Shown here: positions 839 to 52,702 of the stretch, one piece after another
Layout of the letters: every line of letters begins with the position of its first letter
How positions within the stretch are numbered: position 1 is the first letter of the stretch
DNA from: a virus
Virus record (IMG/VR): IMGVR_UViG_3300010938_000951
Span: 124,001 to 188,000 of that record
Strand: one strand, 5' to 3'
DNA: 64,000 nt
The notes under the pieces: model-generated
The model's database searches: none
Seen by the model: only the letters and a program-made list of their open reading frames with translations
What the model was told of the DNA's origin: nothing
Made by a program: the position numbers and the translations under genes

Positions 839-922
839 GCTACCATGGTGGAATGGCAGACACGCTGGTCTTAGAAGCCAGTGCCGCGAGGCGTGGGGGT
901 TCGAGTCCCTCTGGTAGCACCA
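839..922 (+). tRNA. tRNA-Leu (UAG), class II
   Basis: 84 nt. Acceptor GCTACCA pairs with TGGTAGC; discriminator A; CCA encoded. The anticodon loop CTTAGAA gives anticodon TAG (codon CUA). A long variable arm (TGCCGCGAGGCG region) marks it as a true class II Leu tRNA. A TATATA box lies about 10 nt upstream. It is the first tRNA of the array. Confidence 0.93.
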
Positions 923-1099
923 ATGAGAAGGGAATGTGAAAGTTGTCCTGATCATCAGTCCGACTCTCATCCAAACAAAAATAGTTTGAGATGTTCGTGT
1001 GGGCGCTGGTTAGTTCCAATGGGTATAGCAGGTATTACAGGCTTATACTACGTGTGCCCTAAAGAACAGGAACTAACACAGAATTTTATGCTTTTGTGA
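923..1099 (+). CDS. small cysteine-rich protein inside the tRNA array
   Basis: A 58-residue ORF whose ATG is the base immediately after the CCA of the preceding tRNA-Leu; its stop lies inside the acceptor stem of the next tRNA. Visible features are CESC near the N-terminus and CSCGRW near residue 27, a possible zinc-binding set, then a glycine-rich stretch. There is no good Shine-Dalgarno, because the upstream bases are the tRNA acceptor stem. Not recognised. It could be a real tRNA-linked mini-gene or a spacer ORF. Confidence 0.45.
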   Translation: MRRECESCPDHQSDSHPNKNSLRCSCGRWLVPMGIAGITGLYYVCPKEQELTQNFMLL

Positions 1100-1166
1100 C
1101 GGAATTGGCATACGTACTACACTCAGAATGTAGGTTGTGAGGGTTCGAATCCCTCCAAAAGCACCA
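1090..1166 (+). tRNA. tRNA with Leu anticodon (CAG), class I shape
   Basis: 77 nt. Acceptor GCTTTTG/CAAAAGC, A73, CCA encoded. Anticodon stem CTACA/TGTAG closes loop CTCAGAA, anticodon CAG (codon CUG). The T-arm is GAGGG/CCCTC. The variable loop is only about 5 nt (GTTGT), so it lacks the long arm expected of tRNA-Leu. Folding is good overall; amino-acid identity is uncertain because Leu tRNAs are normally class II. Confidence 0.8.
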
Positions 1167-1168
1167 AT

Positions 1169-1242
1169 GCTCAGGTGAATGTAATTGGTAAACATACCAG
1201 GCTTAGACCCTGGGTTTGTGGGTTCGAATCCCACCCTGAGCA
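1169..1242 (+). tRNA. tRNA with Leu anticodon (UAG), class I shape
   Basis: Acceptor GCTCAGG/CCTGAGC, A73 at 1242. The next bases are CAA, so CCA is not encoded. Anticodon stem CCAGG/CCTGG with loop CTTAGAC, anticodon TAG. The variable loop is short (class I). It closely resembles the preceding CAG tRNA in layout, suggesting tandem duplication with an anticodon change. Identity as Leu rests only on the anticodon. Confidence 0.78.
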
Positions 1243-1250
1243 CAAATAAT

Positions 1251-1334
1251 GTCACCGTGGTGGAATGGCAGACACGCTAGCTTGAGGTGCTAGTGCCGAA
1301 AGGCGTGAGGGTTCGAGTCCCTCCGGTGACACCA
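1251..1334 (+). tRNA. tRNA-Leu (GAG), class II
   Basis: 84 nt. Acceptor GTCACCG/CGGTGAC, A73, CCA encoded. Anticodon stem CTAGC/GCTAG with loop TTGAGGT, anticodon GAG (codons CUC/CUU). A long variable arm (TGCCGAAAGGCG) is present as expected for Leu. Its 3' acceptor strand GGTGA also sits at Shine-Dalgarno distance from the next ATG at 1337. Confidence 0.92.
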
Positions 1335-1336
1335 AA

Positions 1337-1969
1337 ATGGGTAAGTATATTCCTATTCATAAACGCTCAATTCATGAGCAAATTTGTCATCAAGAAGATT
1401 TAGCTGTCTTTAGAGCAATAAGACAAGCATTACCACCTAAGGAAGCGTTGATTATGGAATTAAGTTTGCATCAATGTGTGTTCGGCCCGGTACTGATTGG
1501 ATCAGATGATGTAGGTCGTTTGGTCTCTGTAGAGTTTGGATCCGATATGGATGAGTGTTATCGCAACTTCATCAATACATGGGGGCGAAAAAGCAATGAC
1601 TATAACGATTCTGTATCAGTCACGCCTCGTAAGAATTTTCAAATTGTAGATAAGGTTCTTAATTCAATTAATACTGGAATTATTGATCCATCGATTGAGC
1701 TTAACCTATTTGGCACGGGAACTTATTTTCAACGTCAAGTGTGGGAAGGAATTAGAAAGATTCCGCCTGGTGAGGTTATGTCTTACCAACAATTAGCGCA
1801 AGCCATTAATCGCCCTAATTCTACTCGTGCTATTGGTAATGCTTGCGGTACTAATCCAATTGGTATTTTTATACCTTGCCATCGAGTTGTTAGAATTGAT
1901 GGAAAACTTTCTGGCTTCAAATGGGGCAGTGATCTCAAGCAAAAGCTTCTAGATAGAGAACAAATCTAA
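1337..1969 (+). CDS. ogt: methylated-DNA--protein-cysteine methyltransferase (Ogt/MGMT)
   Basis: A 210-residue protein. The C-terminal half holds the alkyl-acceptor motif IPCHRVVR, preceded by RAIGNACGTNP (the DNA-binding recognition-helix and Asn-hinge region) and followed by SGFKWGSDLKQKLLDRE. The family removes O6-alkyl groups from guanine in a single suicidal transfer to the PCHR cysteine. The N-terminal half is the weakly conserved ribonuclease-like domain. The start is 3 nt after the tRNA-Leu CCA end; the tRNA acceptor strand GGTGA may serve as ribosome-binding site. Its role is likely protection of phage DNA against alkylation. Confidence 0.93.
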   Translation: MGKYIPIHKRSIHEQICHQEDLAVFRAIRQALPPKEALIMELSLHQCVFGPVLIGSDDVGRLVSVEFGSDMDECYRNFINTWGRKSNDYNDSVSVTPRKNFQIVDKVLNSINTGIIDPSIELNLFGTGTYFQRQVWEGIRKIPPGEVMSYQQLAQAINRPNSTRAIGNACGTNPIGIFIPCHRVVRIDGKLSGFKWGSDLKQKLLDREQI

Positions 1970-2383
1970 TTAGCTATATTTGTCAAGCAAAGCATCGCTG
2001 ACTTCAACAAATGCTTTTTTCTTACCATCTTTGCCGGGCTTCTTAGCCTTTTCAGATACTTCAATAGAAGGATACTTGGCTTTAACTTTACGAGCCACCA
2101 AATTAACTAGAGATTGTAGTGAGCCACTGTACCAGTCTGGCGCAGAAGAATATTGATTAACACGAGCTAATGCATTACGGGCCTGAGCTTCGTTATTGAT
2201 TGGAAAGTGATCTTTCTTGTCCTTGGCGCTTTCGGCAGGCACACATACCGTTCCTCTATTGCGAACCTTAGCTTTAGGATCAAGTTTCTTATCCTTTTTC
2301 TTAGCTTCGGCAACTAAAGAGTCTGTTGCTGATTTTTCAAATTCGACAGCTTGCAATAAAACTTGTTCTACGTTATTTGGCAT
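1970..2383 (-). CDS. conserved phage protein, Lys-rich, unknown function
   Basis: 137 residues from the ATG at 2383, chosen because GGGAAAAGG lies just upstream; an upstream ATG at 2410 in frame is less likely. The middle part (RGTVCVPAESAKDKKDHFPI, then NNEAQARNALARVNQYS and VKAKYPSIEV) is of a type I associate with conserved phage proteins of unknown role. It is rich in Lys and Ala at both ends with no membrane segment. It overlaps the upstream minus-strand gene by 11 bp, so the two form an operon. It converges with ogt (stops adjacent at 1969/1970). Confidence 0.75.
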   Translation of the reverse strand: MPNNVEQVLLQAVEFEKSATDSLVAEAKKKDKKLDPKAKVRNRGTVCVPAESAKDKKDHFPINNEAQARNALARVNQYSSAPDWYSGSLQSLVNLVARKVKAKYPSIEVSEKAKKPGKDGKKKAFVEVSDALLDKYS

Positions 2384-3173
2384 GGCCTTTTCCCTTTCCC
2401 TGTTTATCATGACGGCGTTTGGTTCTGCTAGGAGAATTAAGTTTTAATTCTTTTTTCCATTCAGGATATGAGCGGCCAAACACGGCTCTATCTTCGCTTT
2501 GATCGCGAATAATTACATAACCACCATCGGTCATGGTAAATGGCTTAGAAAGTTTTCCTAGCCAATCAAATTTGGCACCAGCAGGTGGGGCAGGGTCAAA
2601 CCAAGCTGGAAGTGCAAAATTGGAAACTTTAACTGGAGTTCCATCAACATCTACATCGTAATAGTCACTTTCAACTGGATCAGCTACCTCTAAAGCATAG
2701 CTCAAACCTTCATTCCAGTTATCGGCCCAATAGTTCGCTTGAGGATCCATCATAATCTCAAGAACCTCATGGGACAGCACAGTAGAAACGGGTAAATTGT
2801 ATTTTTGTGTTATCTTAACAAAAACACGACCATATGGTAATCCATCTGGGCCGTCTGAATGATAGCCTAGAGCGCCAGCAATATCGGCATCATCAAAGAT
2901 TAGAACTTTGAAGGCTCCTGGTTCGGTAGCGGCTTCTGAATCTCTATAAACTACTTTAGGTGGTTTTAAATCCCAAGTTGGAGCGGCATGCTCACGAGCC
3001 TGCCTAGCAACACCACGAGTCATCAATTCAACCTCAGCATTTGAGAGAATTGAAGATTTATTGATGACAGCAATGAGCATATTACCATCTTCTCCAAGAT
3101 TTACAGGAGGTGTTGGAGTAATTTCATTGCTGGAGGATCCGGTGAGCCAATTCCAAAATTTTTTAAAACACAT
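2373..3173 (-). CDS. putative metallopeptidase-like phage protein (HEVLE motif)
   Basis: 266 residues. After a Pro/Thr/Ser linker near residue 20, the core has LSHEVLEIMMDP around residue 135 and a later ALEVADPVESDYYD. SHEVLE followed by an acidic EVADP resembles a zinc-binding HExxE-type site, so a peptidase-like fold is inferred, not proven. The tail is very basic (SPSRTKRRHDKQGKGKGHAK). The start has an AGGA 8 nt upstream. It may be a structural or tail-associated protein; I do not recognise a named family. Confidence 0.65.
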   Translation of the reverse strand: MCFKKFWNWLTGSSSNEITPTPPVNLGEDGNMLIAVINKSSILSNAEVELMTRGVARQAREHAAPTWDLKPPKVVYRDSEAATEPGAFKVLIFDDADIAGALGYHSDGPDGLPYGRVFVKITQKYNLPVSTVLSHEVLEIMMDPQANYWADNWNEGLSYALEVADPVESDYYDVDVDGTPVKVSNFALPAWFDPAPPAGAKFDWLGKLSKPFTMTDGGYVIIRDQSEDRAVFGRSYPEWKKELKLNSPSRTKRRHDKQGKGKGHAK

Positions 3174-3205
3174 AGCGCTATCCTAAATTTTTATATTTGT
3201 TGCGG

Positions 3206-3233
3206 TTGACAAAGGTTCGTTAGAGGTTATATT
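3206..3233 (+). promoter_or_regulatory. sigma70-like promoter for the His/Glu/Arg tRNA array
   Basis: TTGACA (3206-3211), 16-nt spacer, TATATT (3228-3233). The same TTGAC-N16-TATATT layout occurs at 8439 and 49014. A second box TGATATACT (extended -10) follows at 3236-3244. It lies between the divergent minus-strand gene and the first tRNA-His. Confidence 0.7.
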
Positions 3234-3273
3234 TGTGATATACTAATAATTAGGCAATAATATTGCTACGTAT

Positions 3274-3350
3274 GGTGGACGTTTACATCTGGTGATGTTG
3301 GAAGGTTGTGACCCTTTCTAGGCTCGGTTCGAATCCGGCCGTTCACCCCA
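3274..3350 (+). tRNA. tRNA-His (GUG), with encoded G-1
   Basis: Extra 5' G (3274) opposite C73, acceptor GTGGACG/CGTTCAC, CCA encoded. Anticodon stem GAAGG/CCTTT with loop TTGTGAC, anticodon GTG. One T-stem pair (49-65) is mismatched. The G-1:C73 pair is the HisRS identity element and is encoded here rather than added. Confidence 0.92.
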
Positions 3351-3354
3351 ATAT

Positions 3355-3431
3355 GGTGAGTGTACCCGAGTGGTTTCAGGGGACTGGCTGTGACCCAGTT
3401 TACGCGGGTTCAATTCCCGTCACTCACCCCA
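3355..3431 (+). tRNA. second tRNA-His (GUG), with encoded G-1
   Basis: G-1 at 3355, acceptor GTGAGTG/CACTCAC, C73, CCA encoded. Anticodon stem ACTGG/CCAGT with loop CTGTGAC, anticodon GTG. It has the same anticodon as the preceding tRNA but a very different body, so it is not a recent duplicate. Confidence 0.9.
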
Positions 3432-3435
3432 TAAT

Positions 3436-3511
3436 GGTCCCATCATCTAATGGTTCAGGATGAGAGATTTTCACTCTCTTCATAGGGGTTCGAATCCCCT
3501 TGGGATCACCA
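3436..3511 (+). tRNA. tRNA-Glu (UUC)
   Basis: Acceptor GGTCCCA/TGGGATC (one G-U pair), A73, CCA encoded. Anticodon stem AGAGA/TCTCT with loop TTTTCAC, anticodon TTC. T-arm AGGGG/CCCCT. Confidence 0.92.
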
Positions 3512-3527
3512 ATCTTTACATAGAAAG

Positions 3528-3710
3528 TTGATTGTGAGATATTTATTTGTATTACTTTTAAGTGGATGCATTTTCAATCATCCACAATACTGTCATACTA
3601 ATGGTGATTGTTTAATGGGACAATATTGTCCGACAGTGAGAGATCCCTCTCAACCTCCTGATATTTGTAAAGGTAAGGCGATTATTAACCATAATATTTT
3701 AGCTGACTAA
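3528..3710 (+). CDS. small Cys-rich lipoprotein
   Basis: 60 residues from a TTG at 3528 (AGAAAG just upstream); a GTG at 3534 is an alternative start. The N-terminus is a lipoprotein signal peptide: a hydrophobic run LFVLLL ending in the lipobox LSGC. The mature part is Cys-rich (YCHTNGDCLMGQYCP), a spacing like EB/EGF-type extracellular modules. It should be lipid-anchored in the host envelope. Small phage lipoproteins such as T5 Llp block receptors and exclude superinfecting phage; such a role here is inference. It sits inside the tRNA array. Confidence 0.6.
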   Translation: MIVRYLFVLLLSGCIFNHPQYCHTNGDCLMGQYCPTVRDPSQPPDICKGKAIINHNILAD

Positions 3711-3719
3711 CTGCCAATA

Positions 3720-3731
3720 TTGTGATATAAT
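3720..3731 (+). promoter_or_regulatory. extended -10 promoter-like box before tRNA-Glu(CUC)
   Basis: TGTGATATAAT with TATAAT at 3726-3731, 10 nt upstream of the tRNA at 3742. No convincing -35 is seen. It would start transcription just before the second part of the array. Confidence 0.45.
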
Positions 3732-3741
3732 AGAAGTAAAT

Positions 3742-3817
3742 GGCCCATTCGTCTAATGGTTTAGGACGGCAGCCTCTCACGTTGCTAATACGGGTTCGAA
3801 TCCCGTATGGGTCGCCA
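3742..3817 (+). tRNA. tRNA-Glu (CUC)
   Basis: Acceptor GGCCCAT/ATGGGTC, G73, CCA encoded. Anticodon stem GCAGC/GTTGC with loop CTCTCAC, anticodon CTC (codon GAG). It complements the UUC tRNA-Glu upstream. Confidence 0.9.
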
Positions 3818-3821
3818 TAAT

Positions 3822-3897
3822 GCCCCAGTAGTCTAATGGAAAGGCAGCGGTCTTCTAAGCCGTATACATGTTGGTTCGAGTCCAATCTGGGGTGCCA
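3822..3897 (+). tRNA. tRNA-Arg (UCU)
   Basis: Acceptor GCCCCAG/CTGGGGT (G1-U72), G73, CCA encoded. Anticodon stem GCGGT/GCCGT with loop CTTCTAA, anticodon TCT (codons AGA/AGG). Confidence 0.91.
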
Positions 3898-3910
3898 AGT
3901 AAGTAGTTAT

Positions 3911-3986
3911 GCGTCTGTAATTCAATGGATAGAAATTCTGCCTTCTAAGCAGAAAGTTGGGGGTTCGAGTCCCTCCAGACGTGCCA
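3911..3986 (+). tRNA. second tRNA-Arg (UCU)
   Basis: Acceptor GCGTCTG/CAGACGT (G1-U72), G73, CCA encoded. Anticodon stem TCTGC/GCAGA with loop CTTCTAA, anticodon TCT. Same anticodon loop as the preceding tRNA with different stems. Confidence 0.91.
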
Positions 3987-3989
3987 AAT

Positions 3990-4073
3990 GTCACTGTAAC
4001 CTAATGGAGAGGTATCGGTCTACGAAACCGAAGCGCAAGCTAAATGCAGGTTCGAATCCTGCCAGTGACGCCA
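3990..4073 (+). tRNA. tRNA-Arg (ACG) with long variable arm
   Basis: 84 nt. Acceptor GTCACTG/CAGTGAC, G73, CCA encoded. Anticodon stem TCGGT/ACCGA with loop CTACGAA, anticodon ACG. Between the anticodon stem and T-stem GCAGG/CCTGC lie 14 nt that fold as AGC-GCAA-GCT. This class II-like arm is unusual for an Arg tRNA. Confidence 0.85.
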
Positions 4074-4079
4074 AATAAT

Positions 4080-4156
4080 CTGCCTGTAGCTCAACTGGAT
4101 AGAGCATCAGTCTACGAAACTGAAGGTTGTCGGTTCGACTCCGACCAGGCAGGCCA
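4080..4156 (+). tRNA. tRNA-Arg (ACG), normal class I
   Basis: Acceptor CTGCCTG/CAGGCAG, G73, CCA encoded. D-stem GCTC/GAGC. Anticodon stem TCAGT/ACTGA with loop CTACGAA, anticodon ACG. A34 would need conversion to inosine (host TadA) to read CGU/CGC/CGA. Confidence 0.92.
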
Positions 4157-4168
4157 AAGAGGTAAGTT

Positions 4169-4300
4169 ATGGAAGATCGTCATGCAAGACAAATTGCCGA
4201 AGCAATTAAATCAGCAGGTAGTATGATTGCGTTTGCAATTTGGATGGGTGCCGTATGGGTTGGTTGTACAATGCAGATGGCCTCTTCTATGCACCACTAA
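4169..4300 (+). CDS. 43-residue single-pass membrane mini-protein
   Basis: ATG at 4169 has GAGGT 6-7 nt upstream. The first 18 residues are a charged, helical segment (EDRHARQIAEAIKSAG). They are followed by a hydrophobic stretch MIAFAIWMGAVWVGC, then a short Met/His-rich tail. One membrane segment is predicted. It lies between two Arg tRNAs. Function unknown. Confidence 0.6.
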   Translation: MEDRHARQIAEAIKSAGSMIAFAIWMGAVWVGCTMQMASSMHH

Positions 4301-4307
4301 AATTTAT

Positions 4308-4382
4308 GTCCCTATAGTGAAAAGGATATCACGATTGTCTTCGAAACAATCAGTACAGGTTCGAGTCCTGTTGGGGATACCA
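4308..4382 (+). tRNA. tRNA-Arg (UCG)
   Basis: Acceptor GTCCCTA/TGGGGAT (with G-U pairs), A73, CCA encoded. Anticodon stem ATTGT/ACAAT with loop CTTCGAA, anticodon TCG (codon CGA). Last tRNA of the first array, followed 2 nt later by a terminator. Confidence 0.9.
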
Positions 4383-49054: not shown

Positions 49055-49128
49055 GCTGGCTTAGTATAATGGTATTATTCCGCCCTTGTAACGCGGAGAA
49101 CCGAGTTCGATTCTCGGCGCCAGCTCCA
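49055..49128 (+). tRNA. tRNA-Thr (UGU)
   Basis: Acceptor GCTGGCT/CGCCAGC (last pair mismatched), U73, CCA encoded. Loop CTTGTAA, anticodon TGT (codon ACA). The anticodon stem CCGCC/CGCGG has a C31-C39 mismatch. Confidence 0.88.
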
Positions 49129-49141
49129 AATAGAGTAATAA

Positions 49142-49216
49142 GCCCACGTAGTATAACGGTTATTACCCGTCTTTGGTAAAGACGAAAATTGAGTTCGACT
49201 CTCAACTTGGGCTCCA
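49142..49216 (+). tRNA. tRNA-Thr (GGU)
   Basis: Acceptor GCCCACG/CTTGGGC, U73, CCA encoded. Anticodon stem CGTCT/AGACG with loop TTGGTAA, anticodon GGT (codons ACC/ACU). Confidence 0.9.
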
Positions 49217-49219
49217 TAG

Positions 49220-49294
49220 GCTGATTTAGTATAACGGCTATTACCCCGCCCTAGTAACGCGGAAATGAGGGTTCAATTCCCCCAATCAGCTCCA
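49220..49294 (+). tRNA. tRNA-Thr (AGU)
   Basis: Acceptor GCTGATT/AATCAGC perfect, U73, CCA encoded. Loop CTAGTAA, anticodon AGT. Anticodon stem CCGCC/CGCGG with C31-C39 mismatch. Confidence 0.88.
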
Positions 49295-49299
49295 GGCTA

Positions 49300-49377
49300 G
49301 CCACTATAGCTCAGATTTTGGTAGAGCAGTTCTATCGAGGGGACAGGCCGCGGGTTCAAGTCCCGTTAGTGGCTCCA
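49300..49377 (+). tRNA. tRNA of uncertain identity (possible CGA anticodon)
   Basis: Acceptor GCCACTA/TAGTGGC, D-stem GCTC/GAGC and T-arm GCGGG/CCCGT are sound; U73 and CCA encoded. The anticodon arm GTTCT-ATCGAGG-GGACA pairs poorly. With normal numbering the anticodon is CGA (Ser UCG), but the short variable loop is not that of a Ser tRNA. Identity left open. Confidence 0.65.
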
Positions 49378-49382
49378 AATAG

Positions 49383-49456
49383 GCTGATATCGTATAGTGG
49401 AATTACGCTGCCCTCGTAACGCAGACACATGAGTTCGATTCTCATTATCAGCTCCA
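49383..49456 (+). tRNA. tRNA-Thr (CGU)
   Basis: Acceptor GCTGATA/TATCAGC, U73, CCA encoded. Loop CTCGTAA, anticodon CGT (codon ACG). Anticodon stem CTGCC/CGCAG, again with C31-C39 mismatch. Confidence 0.88.
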
Positions 49457-51049: not shown

Positions 51050-51089
51050 AGTCACTATGAGCTATCTATAGAACCATCTAATCAGGCAA

Positions 51090-51653
51090 ATGAAAAGCTG
51101 TCCACAGACAGACAGCCAATCCGTGTATGAACACGGCGTCTCTGTTAAAGAGCATATTTTTGAATTAATTTCATTCTTGAAAACCGGAAAGATTCCTGAA
51201 GGTTGGCGATTACCCGACTGGATGAGTGAGTATCGAGAGCAGTTGTTAGCCTCCTTACTTCCAGACGATATTATCAAAGCCTACGCAGTCTTCCACGATT
51301 GTGGCAAGCCCTATTGTATCACTATTGATGAACAGGGCAGAAGGCATTTTCCTGACCACCCTGAAATATCCCATAATGTTTGGCTGTATGTTAGCAATAA
51401 CAAAACGATAGCTAAGCTAATTCTTATGGATATGAAAATTCATACTATGAAGGCAGTAGATGTTGATGAATTCTGTCAGCATCGAGAAGCCACTACTCTC
51501 CTGCTTGCAGGATTAGCTGAAGTACATAGTAATGCAAAGATGTTTGGCGGCATTGATTCTGAATCCTTCAAAATCAAATGGAGCCAAATTAATAAACGCG
51601 GTAAAGCAATTTGCCGCAAATTATTTGGAGATAAACATGTGTCTATAGGTTAA
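51090..51653 (+). CDS. HD-domain phosphohydrolase; in-frame TAG upstream
   Basis: 187 residues from ATG 51090. HD signature: H15 in SVYEHGVSVKEH, VFHDCGKP with H69/D70, then RRHFPDHPEISHNVW. HD enzymes hydrolyse phosphoesters (nucleotides, RNA ends, alarmones). An ATG at 51057 is in frame and reads M-S-Y-L-TAG-N-H-L-I-R-Q-M before the annotated ATG. If TAG is read as sense the protein gains 11 residues. The shorter form has AGG only 4 nt before its ATG. It overlaps the Pth2-like gene downstream. Confidence 0.75.
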   Translation: MKSCPQTDSQSVYEHGVSVKEHIFELISFLKTGKIPEGWRLPDWMSEYREQLLASLLPDDIIKAYAVFHDCGKPYCITIDEQGRRHFPDHPEISHNVWLYVSNNKTIAKLILMDMKIHTMKAVDVDEFCQHREATTLLLAGLAEVHSNAKMFGGIDSESFKIKWSQINKRGKAICRKLFGDKHVSIG

Positions 51654-51987
51654 AGAAGGCGATAAGCTTTATGTTATTACTCGTGCAGATTTGGAACCGG
51701 GTTATCAAGCAGTTCAGAGCATGCATGCTTTGAGACAATTCACTGCTGAACACCCTGAGATTGACAAAGTATGGTTTGAGCAATCAAACTATCTTGGGCT
51801 TCTTTCGGTGCAAAATGAACAAGAACTCATGCGGCTGCTAGAGCAAGCCAATGAGCAAGGAATTCATGCATCAGCTTTTAGAGAGCCCGATATTGATAAT
51901 CAGATGACAGCAATTGCGCTGTCACCCGGCCCTAAGTCTAAAAAGCTTTGTAGCCGATTACCACTAGCATTAAGAGGTAAACAATGA
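51637..51987 (+). CDS. peptidyl-tRNA hydrolase, PTRHD1/Pth2-like, amber at codon 4
   Basis: The conserved body reads KLYVITRADLEPGYQAVQSM, HALRQF, FREPDIDNQMTAIALSPGPK and LCSRLPLALRG, the Pth2/PTRHD layout. Pth2 frees tRNA from peptidyl-tRNA that drops off the ribosome. The only start that keeps the first beta strand is ATG 51637 (TTTGGAG at ideal spacing), but its codon 4 is TAG (51646-51648): M-C-L-TAG-V-K-E-G. A TTG at 51691 would cut off the first strand. Read-through by the CUA tRNAs 900 bp downstream would restore it; a nonsense mutation or sequencing error is the alternative. Confidence 0.72.
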
Positions 51988-52543: not shown

Positions 52544-52617
52544 CCGCTCTTGGTATAGTGGCTGTGCCGCCGACTCTAAATCGGCAGAGCTGTGTTCAAA
52601 TCACAGAGAGCGGGCCA
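52544..52617 (+). tRNA. amber-suppressor-type tRNA (anticodon CUA), 1
   Basis: 74 nt. Acceptor CCGCTCT/AGAGCGG, G73, CCA encoded. Anticodon stem GCCGA/TCGGC perfect, loop CTCTAAA, anticodon CTA, which reads UAG. T-arm CTGTG/CACAG with loop TTCAAAT. G73 and the Gln-like anticodon loop are compatible with a Gln charge, but the identity cannot be decided by eye. Well folded. Confidence 0.9.
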
Positions 52618-52627
52618 AATAATATAT

Positions 52628-52699
52628 GCGCCGTTAGCTCAGTGGTAGAGCGGTCGCCTCTAAAACGAACGGTCGTGGGTTCGACCCCCACACGGCGCA
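52628..52699 (+). tRNA. amber-suppressor-type tRNA (anticodon CUA), 2
   Basis: Acceptor GCGCCGT/ACGGCGC, A73, then CAA, so CCA is not encoded. D-stem GCTC/GAGC. T-arm GTGGG/CCCAC. Anticodon loop CTCTAAA, anticodon CTA; the anticodon stem GTCGC/ACGAA has only three good pairs. The loop differs from a Trp-type loop (CTCCAAA) by one base, but identity is unknown. Same anticodon as the tRNA 10 nt upstream, different body. Confidence 0.78.
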
Positions 52700-52702
52700 C
52701 AA

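Follow-up and report, generated by a model that had tools for sequence, protein, structure and literature searches.

In many large phages that otherwise use the standard genetic code, a gene of the peptidyl-tRNA hydrolase 2 (Pth2) family and its HD-domain partner very probably constitute a dedicated module gated by a suppressor tRNA, in which an in-frame stop codon serves as a programmed sense/stop site. The module was studied in a window of 64,000 nucleotides, corresponding to positions 124001-188000 of a 266,899-base phage record (hereafter G000), and in homologous loci of other phages. Decoding of the TAG is strongly supported at the sequence level by conservation of the stop, presence of a matching tRNA, covariation of codon and anticodon, and selection on the codons behind the stop. 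From these we infer read-through in infected cells, a level set by competition with RF1, and a regulatory purpose. The features of the window are given in Table 1.

Table 1. The HD/Pth2 module and the CUA tRNAs, in window coordinates
Feature	Position	Strand	Basis
Gene of an HD-domain protein; other phages have it fused to Pth2	51057..51653	+	Alignments; PHROG 14850 (unknown); weak fold match 3wfo
Amber codon of the HD gene (codon 5), conserved	51069..51071	+	Sequence and relatives
Pth2-like gene, TAG in frame at codon 4	51637..51987	+	PF01981 match, fold match to solved Pth2, 52 homologous loci with the stop there
Conserved Pth2 amber codon, next base purine (G)	51646..51648	+	Sequence and homologous loci
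tRNA, anticodon CUA (C1-G72, G73, CCA encoded)	52544..52617	+	ARAGORN; Rfam tRNA 47 bits
Second tRNA, anticodon CUA (G1-C72, A73)	52628..52700	+	ARAGORN; Rfam tRNA 62.5 bits

The Pth2 gene of the window opens, as originally predicted, with an ATG preceded by TTTGGAG and with a TAG as its fourth codon: ATG TGT CTA TAG GTT AAA GAA GGC GAT AAG CTT TAT, translated as M-C-L-stop-V-K-E-G-D-K-L-Y-V. The protein matches the Pth2 profile PF01981 with 32.8 bits against a gathering score of 23 (E 9e-8). Its fold model has a pLDDT of 94.6 and finds solved Pth2s as top PDB matches; each of the 15 PDB matches below E 0.001 is either a Pth2 structure or an uncharacterised protein with the Pth2 fold. The first strand comprises residues 10-16, with the TAG ahead of it, so that this strand would be lost if translation began at the downstream TTG (codon 19). 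The earlier claim that a complete Pth2 requires the TAG to be read is supported. The Lys of the archaeal GK..AQ motif was not found in the phage subfamily, in which most Pth2s have GY and some have other residues. Because this Lys is absent, the peptidyl-tRNA hydrolase activity of phage Pth2 may differ from that of the archaeal enzyme, and we claim the fold and family membership alone. No relatives of phage Pth2 were found in plasmids, and a search of limited sensitivity found no cellular ones in GTDB genomes. G000 contains a second, ordinary archaeal-type Pth2 without in-frame stop (L001, G000:C1:104040-104465). The RNA around the TAG shows no unusual fold (z -0.2) and hence no sign of a stimulatory structure, which is not required for stop suppression when a suppressor tRNA decodes the codon.

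Just upstream of Pth2 lies the HD gene, which was absent from the original prediction and which opens with ATG AGC TAT CTA TAG. Its product begins with MSYL-stop-NHLI in the window, with MSL-stop, MST-stop, MSHL-stop and others in relatives, with MNT-stop-ITF in LR745206 and with MK-stop-T in RAS14 and XacN1; the TAG of HD itself is present in the window, eight relatives and these three phages. HD and Pth2 of RAS14 and XacN1 are joined in a single ORF that begins with HD and has the TAG at its HD start; pT24 has the two in reverse order, with the TAG at the start of Pth2. CBB, GAP32, XbC2 and SNUABM_19 combine an early TAG in Pth2 with a separate, internal TAG in HD (ELDTG-stop-GDP), at about codon 47 in HD of the CBB type, which splits HD in their annotations. 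The HD genes of ME3 and Arash contain no TAG. HD matches no Pfam family and its closest fold match, the tRNA processing enzyme 3wfo, is weak (E 0.04); HD and Pth2 are plausibly both tRNA-maintenance enzymes. In public annotations (L032, L033, L035, L036, L132) HD is split in two, or Pth2 is missed or started internally, because of the in-frame TAG.

A first scan for homologues, performed with peptide patterns nearly all located away from the TAG, showed an in-frame TAG at the matching position in 13 of 13 homologues. Together with further scans and annotated phages this yielded 52 Pth2 loci with an in-frame early stop, some of them near-duplicates and many from unrelated phage groups: 50 have TAG, one has TAA and one has TGA, located one to nine, mostly two to four, codons past the start. 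They derive from mycobacteriophages (Myrna and Bixzunavirus groups), enterobacterial, Xanthomonas, Acinetobacter, Tenacibaculum and Sinorhizobium phages and uncultured jumbo phages; named examples are CBB, GAP32, XbC2, SNUABM_19, Arash, ME3, pT24 and Phosso, next to several huge uncultured phages. A TAG shortly ahead of the annotated ATG of RaK2 was not counted, since it concerns flanking sequence beside a tRNA with no start upstream, and Mx1, the Pth2 of which has an ambiguous start, was left without verdict. Internally, Pth2 of LR756501 and two contigs (L017, L058, L181) has a second in-frame TAG (FAQEFP-stop-IY) or stop (EWH-stop-VSNYL).

In nine loci not a single ATG, GTG or TTG occurs within 60 codons past the stop. 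Among eight genomes the 14 Pth2 codons between TAG and TTG give a pN/pS of 0.23 when read in frame and of more than 1 in the alternative frames, and the TAG itself is invariant. This comparison covers the part downstream of the stop, the segment upstream being too short for a selection test, and it indicates purifying selection on codons that lie ahead of every usual start. A conserved in-frame stop followed by coding sequence under selection is what characterizes programmed suppression. A lone in-frame stop is otherwise the usual sign of a sequencing error or a decayed pseudogene, but here it recurs across 52 loci of independent origin (assemblies and isolates) and is followed by selected codons, by which such an explanation, to which we assign next to no probability, is already refuted. 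The alignment with homologous phage genes, which had been suggested as a check, hence shows the TAG conserved at its position and excludes mutation or read error.

A purine follows the stop at every one of the 52 loci, as compared to 52 of 117 TAG terminators examined across seven of the genomes; a Fisher test on this context used 44 non-redundant loci counted by hand. A 3' purine is known to favour amber suppression (PMC6266110). Since the codon after the stop encodes Ile or Val in 45 of the 52 loci, the purine signal is partly confounded by this coding preference. The same preference speaks for another reading, according to which the stop ends a mini-ORF or the upstream gene and Pth2 restarts at the near-cognate next codon (ATT, ATC, GTT, GTA, GTG). 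Mycobacteriophages lend it further support, as a true GTG stands right after the TAG with GAAGG or GGAGG at suitable spacing upstream and annotators start Pth2 at that GTG; in these phages initiation there could circumvent the TAG. As an explanation for the loci at large restart is nevertheless improbable, given that seven loci have AAT, AAC, AAA or GGC directly behind the stop, that GTT and GTA are very poor start codons and that the HD TAG of the CBB type is internal. It also leaves both the match between stop and suppressor anticodon, including TGA with UCA, and the co-occurrence of the tRNAs unexplained. A sigma-70 promoter scan at the Pth2 of IkeLoa, performed as a test for a leaderless start, gave no match.

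Suppression by a tRNA would account for these associations. Two CUA tRNAs had been predicted downstream of Pth2; both are found (Table 1) and are the likely readers of the TAG. They differ from each other in acceptor stem and discriminator base, and acceptor stems vary among the CUA tRNAs. A matching suppressor tRNA is present in the examined flank of 44 of the 52 Pth2 loci and elsewhere in the record for CBB, LR756511 and Atu_ph07; for the remaining five the search covered the flank, where none was found. All seven stop-bearing genomes that were scanned whole (G000, G003, IkeLoa, ME3, GAP32, CBB and RAS14) have a CUA tRNA, ME3 despite having just five tRNAs in total. As controls, S-CBWM1 (36 tRNAs) and RaK2 (8 tRNAs), with a Pth2 that lacks the stop, both lack a suppressor.

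One case in which stop identity differs is the Agrobacterium phage Atu_ph07, described as having two Pth genes and a single suppressor tRNA, of anticodon UCA (PMC6102473). A TGA in Pth2 or HD was predicted from this tRNA prior to inspection. One of three Pth2-like genes of Atu_ph07 indeed reads ATG ATT GGC GAA CAC TTT TGA ATT AAT, without ATG, GTG or TTG ahead of the conserved strand, and among 30 tRNAs examined the UCA tRNA is present and a CUA tRNA absent. In the related phage Phosso, Pth2 is 72% identical to the Atu_ph07 homologue, starts with ATG AAG TAT TAG GTT and is accompanied by a CUA tRNA. Contig L065, which shows an apparent frameshift, combines the stop TAA with a UUA tRNA. Stop and anticodon therefore change together, as TAG/CUA, TGA/UCA and TAA/UUA. 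No convincing in-frame TAA was found in Lak and LR745208, which have a UUA tRNA beside Pth2 (L025, L026, L021); in Lak-B8 ATG AAT ATC TAA ATA occurs upstream of and in frame with Pth2.

This covariation also bears on a scenario of autoregulation, in which an AUG-x-x-UAG minigene yields short peptidyl-tRNAs, Pth activity feeds back on the passage of ribosomes and the suppressor tRNA is a bystander. In its favour, the short ORF precedes a gene that itself encodes a Pth, and Pth recycles peptidyl-tRNA dropped off in early elongation (PMC10192219). Any stop would suffice for such a device, yet the stop tracks the suppressor anticodon; HD and the HD-first fusions bear the same device, and the frame continues past the stop under purifying selection. 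We therefore hold autoregulation by itself to be decidedly improbable, albeit it may act jointly with suppression.

Several further observations on RNA genes were made. The tRNAs of the window (839-4382 and 49055-49456) occur in runs by amino acid (Leu; His/Glu/Arg; Thr) with duplicated anticodons, and G000 has about 65 tRNAs. RAS14 has, besides its CUA tRNA, a call of a UUA tRNA close to its end (L268:2428-2502). Relatives of the window phage (L004, L008, L009, L010, L061) have a tmRNA that specifies a tag peptide of its own, located a few kb ahead of the HD/Pth2 module, and in XacN1 a permuted-type tmRNA call adjoins the two CUA tRNAs (L168).

Presence of CUA tRNAs might be attributed to genome-wide genetic code 15 (TAG = Gln), of which Pth2 would be merely one recoded gene. 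Only a minor share of ORFs end in TAG in G000 (14 of 303 with at least 100 aa) and GAP32 (12 of 383), and a few uncultured loci show a gain in coding density under code 15; some of these loci may derive from partly recoded phages. TAG is still a terminator, though: it ends 34 of 134 ORFs of at least 100 aa (25%) in IkeLoa and several ORFs in the Phosso stretch. With TAG as sense codon, coding density merely rises from 0.834 to 0.840 in G000 and from 0.873 to 0.882 in G003, short of the gain of 5-10% by which code 15 is recognised, and is barely altered in ME3. Moreover, the Pth2 stop invariably lies just past the start, and between the related genomes G000 and G003 a conserved in-frame TAG is found in HD and Pth2 and in no other genes; a third conserved TAG (L077:2626) was rejected, as it belongs to a terminator hairpin. 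Code 15 is thus largely refuted by stop usage, and we give it only a very slim chance. Nor do these data support the suggestion in the original prediction that the TAG represents the usual amber reassignment, derived from CAG and read as Gln. The under-use of TAG as terminator in G000 and GAP32, which is not seen in IkeLoa, fits a suppressor that makes TAG leaky.

Under the preferred reading of a suppressor-gated module, the ribosome would initiate at the upstream ATG (or GTG), reach the TAG a few codons on and usually terminate, releasing a tiny peptide. Once transcribed, matured and charged, the phage CUA tRNA would compete with RF1 and insert an amino acid, which would result in full-length Pth2 and HD. 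The enzyme is hence probably made once the phage's own tRNA is present and not before, and the suppressor tRNA would be the key to a dedicated module and not an element of a new genetic code. The likeliest purpose would be to tie the production of tRNA-maintenance enzymes, in time and in amount, to the supply of phage tRNAs. Suppression should also cause run-on in host genes that end in amber as well as stalled ribosomes, and Pth2, together with tmRNA in some relatives, would help to clear the stalled ribosomes and peptidyl-tRNAs that result. The module may manage these, given the plausible role of HD and Pth2 in tRNA maintenance and the tmRNA near the module in relatives. We lean, with reserve, towards the wider view that this is a widespread control circuit in which a dedicated suppressor tRNA has been selected to unlock HD and Pth2 through the early stop, thereby making tRNA-maintenance enzymes depend on how much charged phage tRNA is available, in which stop and anticodon co-evolve and in which the lock moves with the start of the reading frame in fusions and swaps.

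Suppressor tRNAs are often annotated in standard-code phages, and HD/Pth2 would provide a specific, recurrent target for them. The authors of the XacN1 study stated explicitly that the targets of suppressor tRNAs are unknown in phages without an alternative code, and HD/Pth2 was not found as a target in the open-access PMC literature, to which the search was confined. If true, the module represents natural regulatory nonsense suppression without genome-wide recoding and, possibly, an intermediate stage toward a change of code. As the target recurs in phages of ordinary laboratory hosts, the idea is directly testable. It further implies a correction of annotation, since the in-frame stop causes Pth2 and HD to be missed, truncated or split in many phages.

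Phage Pth2 shares its fold and Pfam family with archaeal and eukaryotic peptidyl-tRNA hydrolase 2, from which it differs in that the archaeal GK is mostly GY and in the stop within the gene. In code-15 recoded phages (crAss-like, Lak) a phage suppressor tRNA likewise reads in-frame TAG, and regulatory read-through has been proposed; there, however, TAG is sense in many genes, whereas in the phages described here, which use the standard code, it continues to act as a terminator and the in-frame site is a single codon close to where HD and Pth2 start. Bacterial prfB, encoding RF2, offers another likeness, being a translation-factor gene with a conserved early in-frame stop at which passage senses the translation machinery (PMC12421855), although prfB employs a frameshift, whereas here passage would be by a cognate suppressor tRNA with the frame unchanged and stop identity varies with the tRNA. 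A further comparison is with the suppressor tRNAs of jumbo phages: those of XacN1 and Atu_ph07 are the very ones considered here, and RsoM2USA is a further known case. What is added for them is a target, as HD-Pth2 of XacN1 starts with ATG AAG TAG and one Pth2 of Atu_ph07 with ATG..TGA.
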